This document shows positions 15,145 to 33,094 of a stretch of DNA of 33,094 nucleotides, one piece after another (within the stretch, counting starts at the first letter, position 1; each line of letters begins with the position of its first letter). Where the stretch lies: the NCBI GenBank assembly GCA_944393715.1, contig CALYBB010000046.1:1-33094 (forward strand), written 5' to 3'. The notes under the pieces were generated by a model that was not told where the DNA came from, ran no database searches, and saw only the letters and a program-made list of their open reading frames with translations. A program made the translations under genes and the position numbers. This stretch comes from an uncultured Alphaproteobacteria bacterium. Lineage in GTDB: Bacteria > Pseudomonadota > Alphaproteobacteria > RF32 > CAG-239.

Positions 15145-15885
15145 CTAGTAGGCGTAGACACAGCGCGTGAGCACAAAAGAGTAGGTTTTGTCTTTATAGT
15201 TAAAGTAGAAGGAGCCGTCTGATAAATTCATAGTATGCGCGGAAATATCTCCAATCTCGTTTGATGACCACAAATAATTGGTGTTGCCGATCAAAATAGT
15301 GTCGGGATTAGGCAGGGTCTGAATGGCGTTGTTGACATATGTTTTGTTGCTGTATAGCATTTTTAGCTCGTACATGCTGGGCAGAAAGCCGCCTTCTTTG
15401 GCGCAAAAACCGGCGGCATGAGCGGAGCCGTAGATTTTGGCGTTAATTATTTGGGTATTGACTTGACCATCAATGTCACATGTTCTGTAGTTTTCCGCAA
15501 TACAGTTTGTTAAATTGCTTATGTCGGTACCGTAACCCCCCCACGGAAGAGACGGGACGGGTGCGGTTAGGGATACGGCGCGGCGTTTGTACGAGTCAAA
15601 CACGATACCGAGCGGGGTTTTGCCGCTAGGAGTGCCGTCATAACATTTTTTGTCGTCGTACAAAATCGAGCCAACCAGGCAAGTTGTCTGTTTGAGCGGT
15701 TCGGGGCAGAAGACTTTGGTTGTGTCAAAAGGGCATCTGAGCATTCGCTGTCCGGAACACGCATCTTCGCTTTCGGAATATCCGAGAGCATCGCAACTCG
15801 GCGGCGTGCTGCAATCAACTGCGGCATTGGCAGCAGAGCATAGGCCTAGGAAGACAGCGCCGGTCAGTAATAAAATTTTTTTCAT
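15145..15885 (-). CDS. Secreted Cys-rich Lcl/DUF1566-like protein (paralogue A)
   Basis: A 246-residue exported protein. The signal peptide is MKKILLLTGAVFLGLCSAANA. The Cys-rich N-module reads VDCSTPPSCDALGY...C...LRCPFDTTKVFC. Next comes the family hinge VGSILYDDKKCYDGTPSGK, then LGIVFDS, FLPSMYELKMLY, the LWSSNE signature and a C-terminal TRCVYAY. The last features resemble Lcl C-terminal/DUF1566 domains found in bacterial surface proteins. The start ATG at 15883-15885 follows GGAGAGGAGGAC. A conserved promoter (15944-15972) and palindrome (15903-15934) lie directly upstream. Role unknown; exposure on the surface or in the periplasm is inferred from the signal peptide. Confidence 0.75.
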   Translation of the reverse strand: MKKILLLTGAVFLGLCSAANAAVDCSTPPSCDALGYSESEDACSGQRMLRCPFDTTKVFCPEPLKQTTCLVGSILYDDKKCYDGTPSGKTPLGIVFDSYKRRAVSLTAPVPSLPWGGYGTDISNLTNCIAENYRTCDIDGQVNTQIINAKIYGSAHAAGFCAKEGGFLPSMYELKMLYSNKTYVNNAIQTLPNPDTILIGNTNYLWSSNEIGDISAHTMNLSDGSFYFNYKDKTYSFVLTRCVYAY

Positions 15886-15902: not shown

Positions 15903-15934
15903 TGTTGCAAAAAAAGGTTCCTTTTTTTGCAACA
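15903..15934. repeat. Palindrome P1 upstream of paralogue A
   Basis: Two 15-bp arms, TGTTGCAAAAAAAGG (15903-15917) and its exact reverse complement (15920-15934), separated by TT. It abuts the ribosome binding site of the 15145 gene and begins about 9 bases after its -10 box, so the transcript would start with, or just before, this hairpin. Confidence 0.9.
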
Positions 15935-15943
15935 CTTTTCTTT

Positions 15944-15972
15944 ATGATAACATATAAGAGTTAAAAAAACAA
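15944..15972 (-). promoter_or_regulatory. Conserved promoter of paralogue A
   Basis: On the minus strand: TTGTTT (-35, 15967-15972), 17-base spacer, TATCAT (-10, 15944-15949). The -35 sits in ATTATTGTTTTTTTAAC, also found in the promoters at 26991 and, with one change, at 32785. All three are followed 5-9 bases later by the palindrome. Confidence 0.7.
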
Positions 15973-26084: not shown

Positions 26085-26855
26085 TTAATAAATCAGGACA
26101 CATCGGGCATCGGCTTGTTTTTGATCTTTGGTAAGTTGATATTCCAAGCTGGGCAGGCTTATGGCGTAGGCATTAGTTGAACTACTTTCATTTGACGACC
26201 AAAGCCATCCATCAATTTTATCTTTGCCAATACTTTGCAGGGTCGCATTAACGGTGTCTAACTTTTGACCGAGAGTCCTCAACTGTTCAAGGCTTGGCAA
26301 AAACCAACTCTGAGGGCCATATTGTCTGAGGTAACAATGTTTGGCAGCAAAACCTCCGATGCTGCCGAAGGCTTCGACAATTTTTTTGGTGTTTTGGTAG
26401 CCATCAGTACCAAGACCTGCAATACTCTTATAACCGGCGCCTCGGGGACTCCAACTTGTATTGTGTGCGTCGGATGCTGTTTCTTCTACGGAAACAGCCA
26501 GCTTTTGGTTTACATCATAAACGACGCCGATAGCTTCCAGATTGGGCGTTCCGTCATAACATTGAAGATCCGAATACAAAACGGCACCGACATAACATAA
26601 TGCCGTTGAAGCTGCCGGCGGCGTTTCCGGTTCGGGTTCCGGCTCTGGTTCCGGTTCTGAAGTTTGGGTATCGGGAACACAAAAGAGTTTGCTGTAATCA
26701 AAGGGGCATTTCAGGCTGGCTCTGCCGGCGCAATCTGACGCGGTCAAAGTATAGCCGTATTCTTCACAATCGGGCAGGCTGCGGCAATCAACAGCAAAGG
26801 CGTTGCCGGCAAAGCATATTGCTCCGACGCTGGTCAGTAATAAAAATTTTTTCAT
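26085..26855 (-). CDS. Secreted Cys-rich Lcl/DUF1566-like protein (paralogue B)
   Basis: 256 residues, signal peptide MKKFLLLTSVGAICFAGNAFA. The Cys module reads VDCRSLPDCEEYGYTLTASDC...LKCPFDYSKLFC and is almost identical to that of paralogue C across the divergent spacer. A Pro-Glu repeat linker (EPEPEPEPEPE, about 72-85) separates it from the hinge YVGAVLYSDLQCYDGTP, then GVVYD, FLPSLEQL, LWSSNE and the C-terminal ARCVLIY. I used the ATG at 26853-26855 with AAGGAG before it; the 39 in-frame codons upstream run through palindrome P2 and are not coding. No good promoter of the conserved type lies directly upstream on this strand. Confidence 0.75.
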   Translation of the reverse strand: MKKFLLLTSVGAICFAGNAFAVDCRSLPDCEEYGYTLTASDCAGRASLKCPFDYSKLFCVPDTQTSEPEPEPEPEPETPPAASTALCYVGAVLYSDLQCYDGTPNLEAIGVVYDVNQKLAVSVEETASDAHNTSWSPRGAGYKSIAGLGTDGYQNTKKIVEAFGSIGGFAAKHCYLRQYGPQSWFLPSLEQLRTLGQKLDTVNATLQSIGKDKIDGWLWSSNESSSTNAYAISLPSLEYQLTKDQKQADARCVLIY

Positions 26856-26865
26856 AGCTCTCTCC

Positions 26866-26911
26866 TTTATTGTGTTGCAAAAAAAGGATCCTTTTTTTGC
26901 AACACAATAAA
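26866..26911. repeat. Palindrome P2, 46 bases, perfect
   Basis: A perfect palindrome centred on GGATCC, with arms TTTATTGTGTTGCAAAAAAA plus GGA and the complement. It ends at the ribosome binding site of paralogue B. Same core as P1, P3, P4, P5 and P6 but with its own symmetric flanks (TTTATTGTG). Confidence 0.92.
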
Positions 26912-26990
26912 AAAAAAGCAGAACAGAACAAGATGGCGATGAAAAACAAGGGGAAAAATCCGGACTAATCAAGGCATTCGGTTAAAATTA

Positions 26991-27019
26991 TTGTTTTTTT
27001 AACACTTTTGTGCTATACT
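26991..27019 (+). promoter_or_regulatory. Conserved promoter of paralogue C
   Basis: TTGTTT (26991-26996), 17-base spacer, TATACT (27014-27019) with an upstream TGC extended -10. It lies between palindromes P2 and P3 and points to the 27174 gene; P3 begins 8 bases after the -10. It matches the promoter at 15944 and the one at 32785. Confidence 0.75.
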
Positions 27020-27027
27020 AAATAAAA

Positions 27028-27061
27028 TTGTTGCAAAAAAAGGATCCTTTTTTTGCAACAA
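27028..27061. repeat. Palindrome P3, 34 bases, perfect
   Basis: Perfect palindrome with GGATCC centre and the GTTGCAAAAAAAGG core, flanked symmetrically by TT/AA. It lies at the predicted transcription start of paralogue C, 66 bases before a second copy (P4). Confidence 0.9.
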
Positions 27062-27125
27062 ATTCGTTTATAAGTTAAAAATCGTCTTTTCGTTGTTTTT
27101 GCTCATTTTTTATAACTTCCTATTG

Positions 27126-27156
27126 TGTTGCAAAAAAAGGATCCTTTTTTGCAACA
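27126..27156. repeat. Palindrome P4, 31 bases, one base asymmetric
   Basis: Same core with GGATCC centre but seven A in one arm and six T in the other. It lies just before the GGGAGAG ribosome binding site of paralogue C. Confidence 0.88.
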
Positions 27157-27173
27157 AAATGGGAGAGCAAAAG

Positions 27174-27905
27174 ATGAAAAAATATTTGTTATTTAGCGGC
27201 GCGGCGATTTTGGGGTTATGTTCAATGGCAAATGCGGCGGTTGATTGTCGCGACCTGCCTGATTGTGAAGAATACGGCTATACTTTGACCGCGTCAGATT
27301 GCGCCGGCAGAGCCAGCCTGAAATGCCCCTTTGATTACAGCAAACTCTTTTGTGTCGTTAAAGAACCAACCGGCAAGAATTGTGTTGTCGGAGCTCTTTT
27401 ATATGATGATTTGAATTGTTATAGATATACATCTGCTCCTTCCGGTAAAAATGCGATTGGTGTGGTGTTTGATACGACAAAAAGGTTGGCTGTTTTGTTG
27501 ACTCCACCACAAAAACGGAAATGGGGCGCAGAAGATCGAGGGTACATGGTAACCGATGTTACGTCTGGTGATTACACTTATACTAGCACGGATGGTCAAG
27601 AGAATACCCAAATACTTATCGGAGCAATGGGAAGCGGAACGGATACGGCGGCAGGGTATTGTTATGGTCTTGGTGGTTTTTTGCCAAGTGCAAGCGAATT
27701 GAAAACGTTGTATGATAATAAAGAAATAGTCAACAACAAACTGAATTCGCTGCCTAATTCCAGCACTATCCTCATCAGTGATATCTATTGGTCATCTAAT
27801 GGATATGGTAACAAAGCTGCAGCCGTGTTTAGTATGGATCATGGATCCTTAACGGGTTATCTGAGGACTGCTACTGTCAATACGCGGTGTGCCGTGGCGT
27901 ATTAG
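27174..27905 (+). CDS. Secreted Cys-rich Lcl/DUF1566-like protein (paralogue C)
   Basis: 243 residues, signal peptide MKKYLLFSGAAILGLCSMANA. The Cys module (VDCRDLPDCEEYGYTLTASDC...LKCPFDYSKLFC) is nearly the same as in paralogue B. The hinge VGALLYDDLNCY, GVVFDTTKRLAV, FLPSASELKTLYDNK, YWSSNG and the C-terminal TRCAVAY follow, giving close similarity to paralogue A in the C-terminal half. The ATG at 27174 follows GGGAGAG; the 27 upstream codons run through P4. It has a roughly 150-base leader with two palindromes and its own strong promoter. Role unknown; exported. Confidence 0.75.
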   Translation: MKKYLLFSGAAILGLCSMANAAVDCRDLPDCEEYGYTLTASDCAGRASLKCPFDYSKLFCVVKEPTGKNCVVGALLYDDLNCYRYTSAPSGKNAIGVVFDTTKRLAVLLTPPQKRKWGAEDRGYMVTDVTSGDYTYTSTDGQENTQILIGAMGSGTDTAAGYCYGLGGFLPSASELKTLYDNKEIVNNKLNSLPNSSTILISDIYWSSNGYGNKAAAVFSMDHGSLTGYLRTATVNTRCAVAY

Positions 27906-28290
27906 GTGTTTTTGTGAAAGAATTTGCATTAAAAAAGATCCTTCGCTGTGCTCAGGATGACAGAAATAAAAAAAGGCTCAGGATGACCGTAACATTTAAA
28001 CTGTCATGCCTCCGAGGCCTTAGGCCGAGGATCAGGCATCTTCAACTGTTTTTGATAAGCGGAAGATCGCTGACCTCGCTCATTACATTCGCTCAGGCGA
28101 TGACAGGTTTAAATAGAAGGGGGATGATATTGCTTTTGTCATTCTGAGGAAAGTTCTTTTTCTGTCATTCTGAGGAACATTTTTTCCTGTCATTCTGAGG
28201 AACGGAGTGACGAAGAATCGATATTTAATGAGATGTTTCGCTTACGCTCAACATGACGGTAAGGAGATCCTTCGCTGTGCTCAGGATGAC

Positions 28291-30809: not shown

Positions 30810-31718
30810 TCAATCTAACTGCCATTCATTTTTGCACTTTTCTTCAAGCCAGGCGTCATCCTCCTGATTGGATTCATAGTAAAAAGCACATCGCGTAGAG
30901 CCTAAATTCATTTTGGGCATTAATTCGATGTTTCCCGTCGCCGCGGTTACAGCTATGCCATAATCCCGATTGGCTTCGTCTGACGACCAATAAAAGCCTT
31001 TGTTGCGTATTTCGCCAGAGGTATCAGTGAAATAACGCGAGCTATAATGCTTTCTGACTTGTTTAAGAGCCTCGTTAAATTGATCTTTTATGGCTAGTAT
31101 TTGCAGTAGCTCTTTAGCACTGGGGAGAAAAACGGTGTATGTTTCAGGATCATGCCCCGCGGAGTTACAAGCACCAAGTACGTAACCGTAATTTTGTTCG
31201 CCTCGGATTCCTGAAAGGTAGCTATTACAAACACCTAAAGAATTGCAGCCTTCAGCCGAAGAACAATTAGTTAATGGCGAATCCGTAGCCGTATATCGAC
31301 ACCAGTTATAATAGTCGTTTGTTTGACATTCACTCCAAAAAGTGTAGCTTCCCTCATCAAATGTTACAGCCAGTTTATTTTCGTCGTCGAAAACAACGCC
31401 TAAGGGAACCTTATTCGTCGGAAACCCCGTATAACACTTAAAATCATCGTATAAAATACTTCCGCTTTCGCAGTTAACCTCTTTAACTTCTTCCGGAATT
31501 TCTTCCGGTTCGGTTGAGCTGCCATTTCCGAGCGCGCAAAAATAATTTTCGCCAAAGGGGCATTTTAGCTTGGGTAAGTTGCCGCATTCAGAAGCTGTCT
31601 TATTATATCCCAGCTCGCTGCAGGACGGTGGAATTGAACAATCGATGGCGGCATAAGCTCCGCCGATTGCAGCACCGGTCAAAACAACACTGGTCAGCAA
31701 TAAATATTTTTTCATCAT
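30810..31718 (-). CDS. Secreted Cys-rich Lcl/DUF1566-like protein (paralogue D)
   Basis: 302 residues, signal peptide MMKKYLLLTSVVLTGAAIGGAYA. The Cys module reads IDCSIPPSCSELGYNKTASEC...LKCPFGENYFC. A short Glu/Pro linker leads into the hinge CESGSILYDDFKCYTGFPTNK, LGVVFDDENKLAVTFDEG, a variable Cys-containing middle, FLPSAKELL, the FYWSSDE signature and TRCAFYYE. The C-terminus is longer than in A-C, with an extra Trp/Lys-rich tail (WLEEKCKNEW). GAGGGAGAG precedes the ATG pair. It lies 34 bases after the stop of paralogue E and is probably co-transcribed. The gap still shows a degraded half of the palindrome (TTTTTTGCCGCAAATTGAGG). Confidence 0.75.
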   Translation of the reverse strand: MMKKYLLLTSVVLTGAAIGGAYAAIDCSIPPSCSELGYNKTASECGNLPKLKCPFGENYFCALGNGSSTEPEEIPEEVKEVNCESGSILYDDFKCYTGFPTNKVPLGVVFDDENKLAVTFDEGSYTFWSECQTNDYYNWCRYTATDSPLTNCSSAEGCNSLGVCNSYLSGIRGEQNYGYVLGACNSAGHDPETYTVFLPSAKELLQILAIKDQFNEALKQVRKHYSSRYFTDTSGEIRNKGFYWSSDEANRDYGIAVTAATGNIELMPKMNLGSTRCAFYYESNQEDDAWLEEKCKNEWQLD

Positions 31719-31752
31719 CTTATCTCTCCCTCAATTTGCGGCAAAAAACAAG

Positions 31753-32652
31753 CTATTTCTCTGTCCATTTATCTGAGCATTTTTCTTCGAGCCATGTATT
31801 ATCTTGATTGAGTGTGTCGTAATAAAAAGCACACCGTGTAGGGCCTGGAATTGCTTTTACTAGAAATTCATAGTCATAAGAGCTGGGTTTAAGGTTAGGT
31901 ACAGCGTTAGCATGATCTTCACCGTATACATCTGATGACCAATAGAAGCCTGTGGTGTGTATTTCGTCAGAGTTATAAGTGTCATAATACGAGCTATAAT
32001 GCTTTCTGACTTGTTTAAGAGCCTCGTTAAATTTATCTTTCATGTTGAATATTTTCAGTAGCTCTCTAACATTGGGCACAAAAGTAATATATCCTTTAGG
32101 ATCATGCCCCGCGGCGTTACAAGCATCAAGGACAGGACTTTTAGTAAATTCACCGCTTTCGAATTTGGGATGGTTAGTATTACAAATGCCCGAGCCTGAA
32201 CAGCCGCCAACAGCGTTGCACGCTTTAAATGGCATGTCCGCTGTATCGTATTGACATTCACTATTTTCTCCGAGATTGTTGATTGTTTTGCATTTTTCCC
32301 AAGAAGTATAATCCCCTTCATCAAATGTTACAGCCAGTTTATTTTCGTCGTCGAAAACAACGCCTAAGGGAACCTTATCCGTCGGAAACCCCGTATAACA
32401 CTTAAAATCATCGTATAAAATACTTCCGCTTTCGCAGTTAACCTCTTTGGCTTCTTCTAGTTCGGTCGGGCAAAAATAATATTCGCCAAAGGGGCATTTA
32501 AGCTTGGACATGTTGCCGCATTCAGAAGCTGTCATACTATATCCCAGCTCGCTGCAAGACGGCAGGGTCGAACAATCAATGGAGGCATAAGCCCCGCCGA
32601 TCGCAGCACCGGTTAAAACAACACTGGCCAGCAATAAATATTTTTTCATCAT
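31753..32652 (-). CDS. Secreted Cys-rich Lcl/DUF1566-like protein (paralogue E)
   Basis: 299 residues, signal peptide MMKKYLLLASVVLTGAAIGGAYA. The architecture is the same as paralogue D: Cys module IDCSTLPSCSELGYSMTASEC...LKCPFGEYYFC, hinge and LGVVFDDENKLAVTFDEG identical to D, a different middle, FVPNVRELLKIF, FYWSSD, TRCAFYY and a WLEEKC tail. About 129 bases around the hinge are identical to D except for one base, pointing to a recent duplication or gene conversion. GAGGGAGGG precedes the ATG pair, directly next to palindrome P5. No conserved promoter faces this gene in the present orientation; a weaker TTATCT-17-TATAAA is possible. Confidence 0.75.
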   Translation of the reverse strand: MMKKYLLLASVVLTGAAIGGAYASIDCSTLPSCSELGYSMTASECGNMSKLKCPFGEYYFCPTELEEAKEVNCESGSILYDDFKCYTGFPTDKVPLGVVFDDENKLAVTFDEGDYTSWEKCKTINNLGENSECQYDTADMPFKACNAVGGCSGSGICNTNHPKFESGEFTKSPVLDACNAAGHDPKGYITFVPNVRELLKIFNMKDKFNEALKQVRKHYSSYYDTYNSDEIHTTGFYWSSDVYGEDHANAVPNLKPSSYDYEFLVKAIPGPTRCAFYYDTLNQDNTWLEEKCSDKWTEK

Positions 32653-32662
32653 GTTATCCCTC

Positions 32663-32710
32663 CCTCAATATGTTGCAAAAAAAGGAACCTTTTTTTGCAA
32701 CATATTGAGG
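32663..32710. repeat. Palindrome P5, 48 bases
   Basis: Two 23-bp perfect arms around AA. The core GTTGCAAAAAAAGG is extended symmetrically by CCTCAATAT/ATATTGAGG, and the outer GAGG on the gene side is the start of the ribosome binding site of paralogue E. An RNA hairpin would partly cover the SD. Confidence 0.92.
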
Positions 32711-32784: not shown

Positions 32785-32813
32785 TTGCTTTTTTAACCAT
32801 TGCATGTTATCCT
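32785..32813 (+). promoter_or_regulatory. Conserved paralogue-type promoter pointing out of the window
   Basis: TTGCTT (32785-32790), 17-base spacer, TATCCT (32808-32813), within TTATTGCTTTTTTAAC, matching the promoters at 15944 and 26991. Palindrome P6 begins 5 bases after the -10. It points right, away from paralogue E, and no gene follows before the window ends. Confidence 0.65.
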
Positions 32814-32818
32814 GAGAG

Positions 32819-32858
32819 AAAATGTTGCAAAAAAAGGTTCCTTTTTTTGCAACATTTT
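32819..32858. repeat. Palindrome P6, 40 bases
   Basis: Two 19-bp perfect arms (AAAATG plus the common core) around TT. It lies at the predicted transcript start of the promoter at 32785. Confidence 0.9.
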
Positions 32859-32888
32859 TGTCTTTCCGTCATTCTGAGCTTTTTTATT

Positions 32889-33094
32889 GTCATCCTGAGC
32901 GGGAGCGAAGAATCTCTTAGATTCTTCGGGACTTTCGTCCCTCAGAATGACAGAAGGGAAGGACGCGCCTCAGAATGACAAAATGAAAAGGATGACTCTT
33001 TTCCCGTCATCCTGAGCGGGAGCGAAGGATCTCTTAGATTCTTCGGGACTTTCGTCCCTCAGAATGACAGAAGGGAAGGACGCGCCTCAGAATG
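32889..33094. repeat. Two copies of the long interspersed repeat
   Basis: The unit seen at 30686 occurs at 32889-32983 and again from 33006 to the window end. It reads GTCATCCTGAGCGGGAGCGA, then the self-complementary AATCTCTTAGATT stretch, then CTCAGAATGACA. The spacer 32653-33094 holds no gene, only P5, P6, the promoter and these repeats. Confidence 0.85.

Follow-up and report, generated by a model that had tools for sequence, protein, structure and literature searches.

Invertases of the Hin/Gin type act on a segment that is local to the invertase gene and use a Fis-bound enhancer; in the case of Hin, a promoter is switched between two genes. Strand exchange by serine recombinases (Hin/Gin, resolvases) takes place across a 2-bp core. 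Inverton arrays controlled by the invertase Mpi are best known in Bacteroides. In Bacteroides fragilis, one Mpi enzyme controls 13 regions (PMC4747536) and its repeat is ARACGTTCGTN (PMC8375218). In the cwpV switch of Clostridioides difficile, the inverted segment does not include the promoter, and the OFF transcript has been proposed to contain a terminator (PMC2784873), while the OFF state of the flg switch of the same organism is Rho-dependent (PMC7446863).

The window, which is the whole analysed stretch of 33,094 nucleotides from an uncultured alphaproteobacterium, is probably part of a multi-locus inverton array of the Mpi type, in which promoter cassettes adjoin leader switches similar to that of cwpV. 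A 30-bp dyad, GTTGCAAAAAAAGG-NN-CCTTTTTTTGCAAC, has 21 copies on 7 contigs of this 1.4-Mb genome (50 contigs), and these copies adjoin 12 secreted, adhesin-like genes of one family. Six copies are in the window (15904, 26874, 27030, 27127, 32672 and 32824), the other 15 elsewhere in the genome. At the main locus the order is gene B, P2, promoter cassette, P3, a 67-bp leader, P4 and gene C. The features of the window are:

15145-15885, minus strand: paralogue A
15904-15933: single site, core TT, between a leftward promoter at 15972 on the minus strand and paralogue A
26085-26855, minus strand: paralogue B, secreted Lcl-adhesin-like protein of 256 aa; own promoter not found
26866-26911: P2, putative recombination site (core 26874-26903, core dinucleotide AT); perfect 46-bp palindrome
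26904-27029: promoter cassette, P2 to P3
26933-26968, plus strand: small ORF MAMKNKGKNPD, within the promoter cassette
26991-27019, plus strand: conserved promoter TTGTTT-17-TATACT, directed towards P3 and paralogue C
27030-27059: core of P3, putative recombination site (core AT), common to promoter and leader cassettes
27060-27126: leader cassette, P3 to P4; orientation class 'home', with homologues elsewhere in both orientations
27068-27106, minus strand: small ORF MSKNNEKTIFNL, readable only with the leader flipped
27127-27155: P4, third putative site, 29 bp and short by one T; adjoins paralogue C
27174-27905, plus strand: paralogue C, 243 aa; SD predicted to be masked in the assembled leader orientation
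32672-32701: site, core AA, adjoining the family gene 31753-32652 (minus strand)
32785-32813, plus strand: promoter of a second cassette, directed away from the 31753-32652 gene
32824-32853: site, core TT, in inverted orientation to the site at 32672; a T-run comes next, and no family gene

The two palindromes P2 and P3, between which the sequence-only reading had placed an invertible promoter, are real: P2 is perfect over its 46 bp and P3 is 88% complementary over 27019-27070. The reversed dyad pattern, used as a control, had no matches, none of 100 dinucleotide-preserving shuffles of the window had matches like the P2/P3 dyad, and the exact site is absent from viral contigs. The arms of the sites are nearly invariant and differences are concentrated in the central 2 bp (AT, AA/TT and, once, AC); three sites are mutated outside the central 2 bp. 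Altered sites include 27127, L005 2799 and L006 (core AC). A serine-recombinase site is expected to have constant arms around a variable central 2 bp and, as judged from its sequence, the dyad has this anatomy. It shares with Hin/Gin, which are structural relatives, the small serine recombinase and the two half-sites around a 2-bp core; Hin/Gin segments are local to the invertase gene, whereas the sites here are many and remote. Of 11 pairs of adjacent sites, 10 agree in core class and one is mismatched, a result reached by 17 of 20,000 permutations. The direction of the AA/TT core was considered as proof of inversion and dropped: pairs with asymmetric cores are inverted in five cases and direct in one, which is not significant (p = 0.11). 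The bases flanking the sites extend the palindrome, with 84 matches of 126 versus 57 expected, and none of 5000 permutations in which the flanks were re-paired reached this number. The order of promoter, palindrome, SD and ATG that had been read at 15972-15885 is correct; this locus has no second site and looks locked ON. Several sites lie about 50 to 850 bases from contig ends (L009, the window's 32824, L117-L120 of the genome G067 and L121-L122 of G012), a pattern as from assembly breaks at repeats or from inversion polymorphism.

The statement that no complete recombinase is present was right for the window, but an intact invertase, the only one in this genome, is encoded on contig C41 (L012). 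It has 197 aa, its gene is flanked by groEL and an autotransporter-like gene, and NCBIfam places it in the Mpi family of master DNA invertases (NF009949, 295.6 bits versus a cutoff of 272); the active-site residues R7, S9, R72 and R75 are all present. Orthologues with 78-100% identity were found in three of 35 genomes of the genus (next best 64%). These three genomes hold 20, 14 and 8 sites and the other genomes of the genus between 0 and 2, so that site arrays co-occur with the Mpi orthologue and do so only in these 3 of 35 genomes; the three are probably close relatives, and the co-occurrence is therefore support and not proof. The sequence ARACGTTCGT is found exactly in 4 sites of the related genome G082 and with one mismatch in 13, while the sites of the window's genome have two to three mismatches. 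The C41 invertase may thus be the enzyme that acts on the dyad sites at present. The recombination could also be the work of another enzyme, either XerC/XerD or one that is missing from the assembly, and a gene could indeed be absent from an assembly of 50 contigs that is 96% complete. We consider this very unlikely, given the co-occurrence of orthologue and arrays and the match of the sister-genome sites to the Mpi consensus. XerC/XerD are also poor candidates: the two tyrosine recombinases are best described as XerD/XerC, just below the equivalog cutoffs, and fit the housekeeping pair.

A second serine-recombinase-like protein (L013, C20:20853-21395 of G000; also L149-L154 in relatives) has lost the active-site residues: the equivalents of R7, S9, R72 and R75 are mostly replaced, while length and C-terminal region are kept. 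In five relatives, a protein of this type adjoins a putatively active Mpi-family invertase and may be an accessory or regulatory partner.

Like Mpi of B. fragilis, which is of the same NCBIfam recombinase family, one enzyme would serve many remote sites close to genes for surface structures. The system differs from that of Mpi in its alphaproteobacterial host, in sites that are long palindromes, in the invertible leaders beside promoter cassettes and in its targets, which are adhesin-like proteins here and capsule operons in the case of Mpi.

The clearest sign of inversion comes from the leaders. The leader segment sits between promoter and gene and contains neither. In the promoter-to-gene direction, the leaders of seven paralogous loci in this genome fall into two orientation classes in a ratio of 4:3, the home class (C46_C, which is the leader in the window, C36, C27b and C34) and the flipped class (C27a, C4 and C28); the two orientations are from different paralogous loci, with one assembly per species, and never from one locus found both ways, and the counts are not independent as paralogous loci share ancestry. 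Class assignments agree in all 21 pairwise leader comparisons, several of which are weak singly; the strongest inverted pair, C34/C27a, has a score of 88 (z = 15 versus dinucleotide shuffles). In G082, leader L114 is flipped relative to L109, with 83% identity when inverted and 46% when compared directly. Flank complementarity, which is independent of the leader alignment, largely gives the identical split. Three of the four home loci have a complete flank match (6 and 6 of 6) that would drop to 1 and 1 with an inverted leader; the window's own leader is less clear, with 4 and 4 as assembled versus 2 and 4 if inverted. At the flipped loci, flank matches as assembled are 1 and 1, 1 and 0, and 3 and 1, and inverting the leader in silico mostly restores them (5 and 3, 3 and 5, 2 and 6). 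These data support inversion at the dyad sites, mainly of leaders of the P3-P4 type, and suggest that the sites may still be switching. A leader peptide similar to MSKNNGKNDF was considered as the main function of the leader, but is treated as secondary, as it is not conserved in the leaders of G082 and G067.

The P2-P3 promoter is enclosed by inverted repeats, and its position at 26991-27019, 8 bases from the extended P3 (27028), had been read correctly. A consensus promoter scan of 26700-27300 found no match on the minus strand, in agreement with the earlier view that paralogue B has no good promoter; the single match on the plus strand is not above chance and is not the TTGTTT/TATACT pair. 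The case for this pair comes from its conservation across 25 promoter-site units of three genomes, in which the -35/-10 block is at a constant distance from the site. Contig C43 carries a cassette that matches that of P2-P3 at 123 of 126 bases (98%), and the 60 bases beyond the sites are, with 55-58% identity between window and C43 versus 49-52% for shuffles, near background, indicating that a site-bounded cassette was copied or exchanged. The promoter of the C43 cassette (L011:6340-6700) faces a flgI (P-ring) gene, for which there is a separate sigma54-like promoter, TGGCAC-N5-TTGCAT; flgI may be insulated by a T-run that follows the site.

The sequence-only reading had proposed that inversion of the P2-P3 segment alone switches between the two secreted proteins. 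With the leader incidental, such a toggle between B and C would explain the sites at both ends, the promoter inside, the lack of a promoter of B's own and the site-bounded cassette common to C43. However, when orientations in relatives were compared, none of 12 cassettes from three species (4 here, 6 in G082 and 2 in G067) had its promoter aimed at the gene at the distal end. Furthermore, leaders with sites recur and do so in both orientations, and P4, of which the sequence-only reading made no use, intervenes: promoter and C are divided by a second site-bounded segment (27060-27126). A switch made by the promoter segment alone is thus quite unlikely. The broader proposal of an invertible-DNA system at the palindromes stands, with site anatomy, an Mpi-family invertase, two segment orientations and cassette boundaries on its side. 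Support for flipping of the P2-P3 promoter between B and C, as one component of the array, is indirect. With all 12 promoters pointing one way, either there is a strong OFF bias of the distal genes in these populations, or flipping of the cassettes is rare or absent. The reading frames of most distal genes are still open, which argues for their use.

The uniform orientation of the promoter cassettes would also fit a reading in which the inversions are old, caused by a recombinase or by homologous recombination between repeats, and regulation of the divergent genes is now static, with the palindromes serving as 5'-UTR hairpins or operators; the existence of mutated sites and the covariation of the flanks, as in RNA hairpins, point in the same direction. 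We regard this as unlikely: the invertase is intact, with its active-site residues, in three species, the arms are conserved in sequence without compensatory change, as expected of protein binding, repeats of 30 bp offer little length to homologous recombination, and the flipped leaders still fit the complementarity of their former orientation.

Among 25 promoter-site units of three genomes, with related loci and with classes assigned by inspection, a T-run of at least 5 T follows the site in 14 of the 16 units whose promoter is directed at a home leader or has no family gene ahead of it and in none of the 9 that lead to a gene, either directly or via a flipped leader (Fisher p = 2.7e-5). Split by leader class, the T-run is present in eight of nine home leaders and in none of four flipped ones, the exception being the window's own leader: the leader of C has no U-tract. 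Intrinsic terminators have the form of a hairpin with a U-tract behind it, and the site thus appears to silence any promoter that serves no gene. The SD is predicted to be less accessible in the home than in the flipped orientation at all seven loci (mean 0.13 versus 0.55, p = 0.016), and the effect is strong at the C locus of the window (0.015 versus 0.66). Besides promoter direction, termination and SD masking are probably part of how the switch works.

In the multi-locus array that we favour, the Mpi-family invertase from C41 would recombine the 30-bp dyads at their 2-bp core, genome-wide, and the locus in the window would consist of the P2-P3 promoter cassette and the P3-P4 invertible 5'-leader cassette between two divergent adhesin-like genes. 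With a home leader, transcription from the promoter would run into an intrinsic terminator made of the site hairpin and U-tract, and the SD would be taken up into the extended gene-proximal hairpin, so that the gene is off; flipping the leader would remove both the terminator-like and the SD-masking block. As assembled, B would be promoterless and C poorly translated. Inversion between P3 and P4 would turn C on, inversion between P2 and P3 would turn the promoter to B, and inversion between P2 and P4 would hand promoter and leader to B. The sites, the site-bounded cassettes, the leaders that lie in two orientations at different loci, the invertase gene and the joint occurrence of invertase and sites can be read from the assemblies; present action of this invertase on these sites and the expression output of each orientation state are what we infer from them. 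Tentatively, and with somewhat more doubt than assurance, we propose that the dyad may be invertase site, intrinsic-terminator stem and SD-masking hairpin in one: each inversion would change which flanks are joined to it, and through the shared middle site a divergent pair of adhesin-like genes could take on several heritable states, with a single master invertase in charge of many loci.

Such a leader switch would resemble cwpV in the promoter outside the inverted leader, the surface protein and the predicted terminator-like OFF structure; cwpV is a single locus with 21-bp repeats 195 bp apart, while there are at least 7 loci here and, unlike in cwpV, the recombination site itself is predicted to be the hairpin and SD masking is predicted in addition. 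As in flg, an invertible 5' leader is predicted to control read-through into the downstream gene, but the OFF state of flg uses Rho, whereas an intrinsic-type hairpin with U-tract is predicted here. In the open-access literature searched, neither a site that serves as hairpin nor promoter and leader cassettes with a common site were described. If true, a similar array in a gut alphaproteobacterium would mean that one enzyme sets the cell surface combinatorially, and the sites would combine DNA recombination with RNA termination or translation control.

The 12 family members that adjoin sites are secreted proteins of about 245-330 aa; a few others are found elsewhere in the genome. A Pfam search did not name the paralogues above the cutoffs; Lcl_C is matched weakly, by 9 of 13 members and at best with 8e-6. 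The AlphaFold model of B (mean pLDDT 80, pTM 0.65) matches a fimbrial protein of Bacteroides ovatus (E 2e-4) and the C-terminal domain of Legionella Lcl (E 4e-4), both with modest TM scores. The family is best described as adhesin-like.

The coding regions of B (26677-26795) and C (27237-27355) have an inverted tract of 119 nt in common that is 96% identical; gene conversion or homologous inversion across this tract would swap the regulatory region too. Neither an intact site nor a promoter accompanies the family gene 30810-31718: upstream, at 31720-31760 of the window, there are TTGCGGCAAAAAACAAGC-like remains, directly after the 31753 gene, and the 30810-31718 gene is perhaps a silent or co-transcribed copy. 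In another species of the genus (G122; L062, L146 and L147), a family gene is preceded by an inverted pair of different palindromes, GCGTTTAAACCACCGTTTAAACGC, 153 bp apart (C1:82813-82989): the layout is the same and the site is different. Dispersed repeats of the type GTCATTCTGAGG are found at 28130-28200 and 32870-33094 of the window and flank family genes here, in G082 and in G067.
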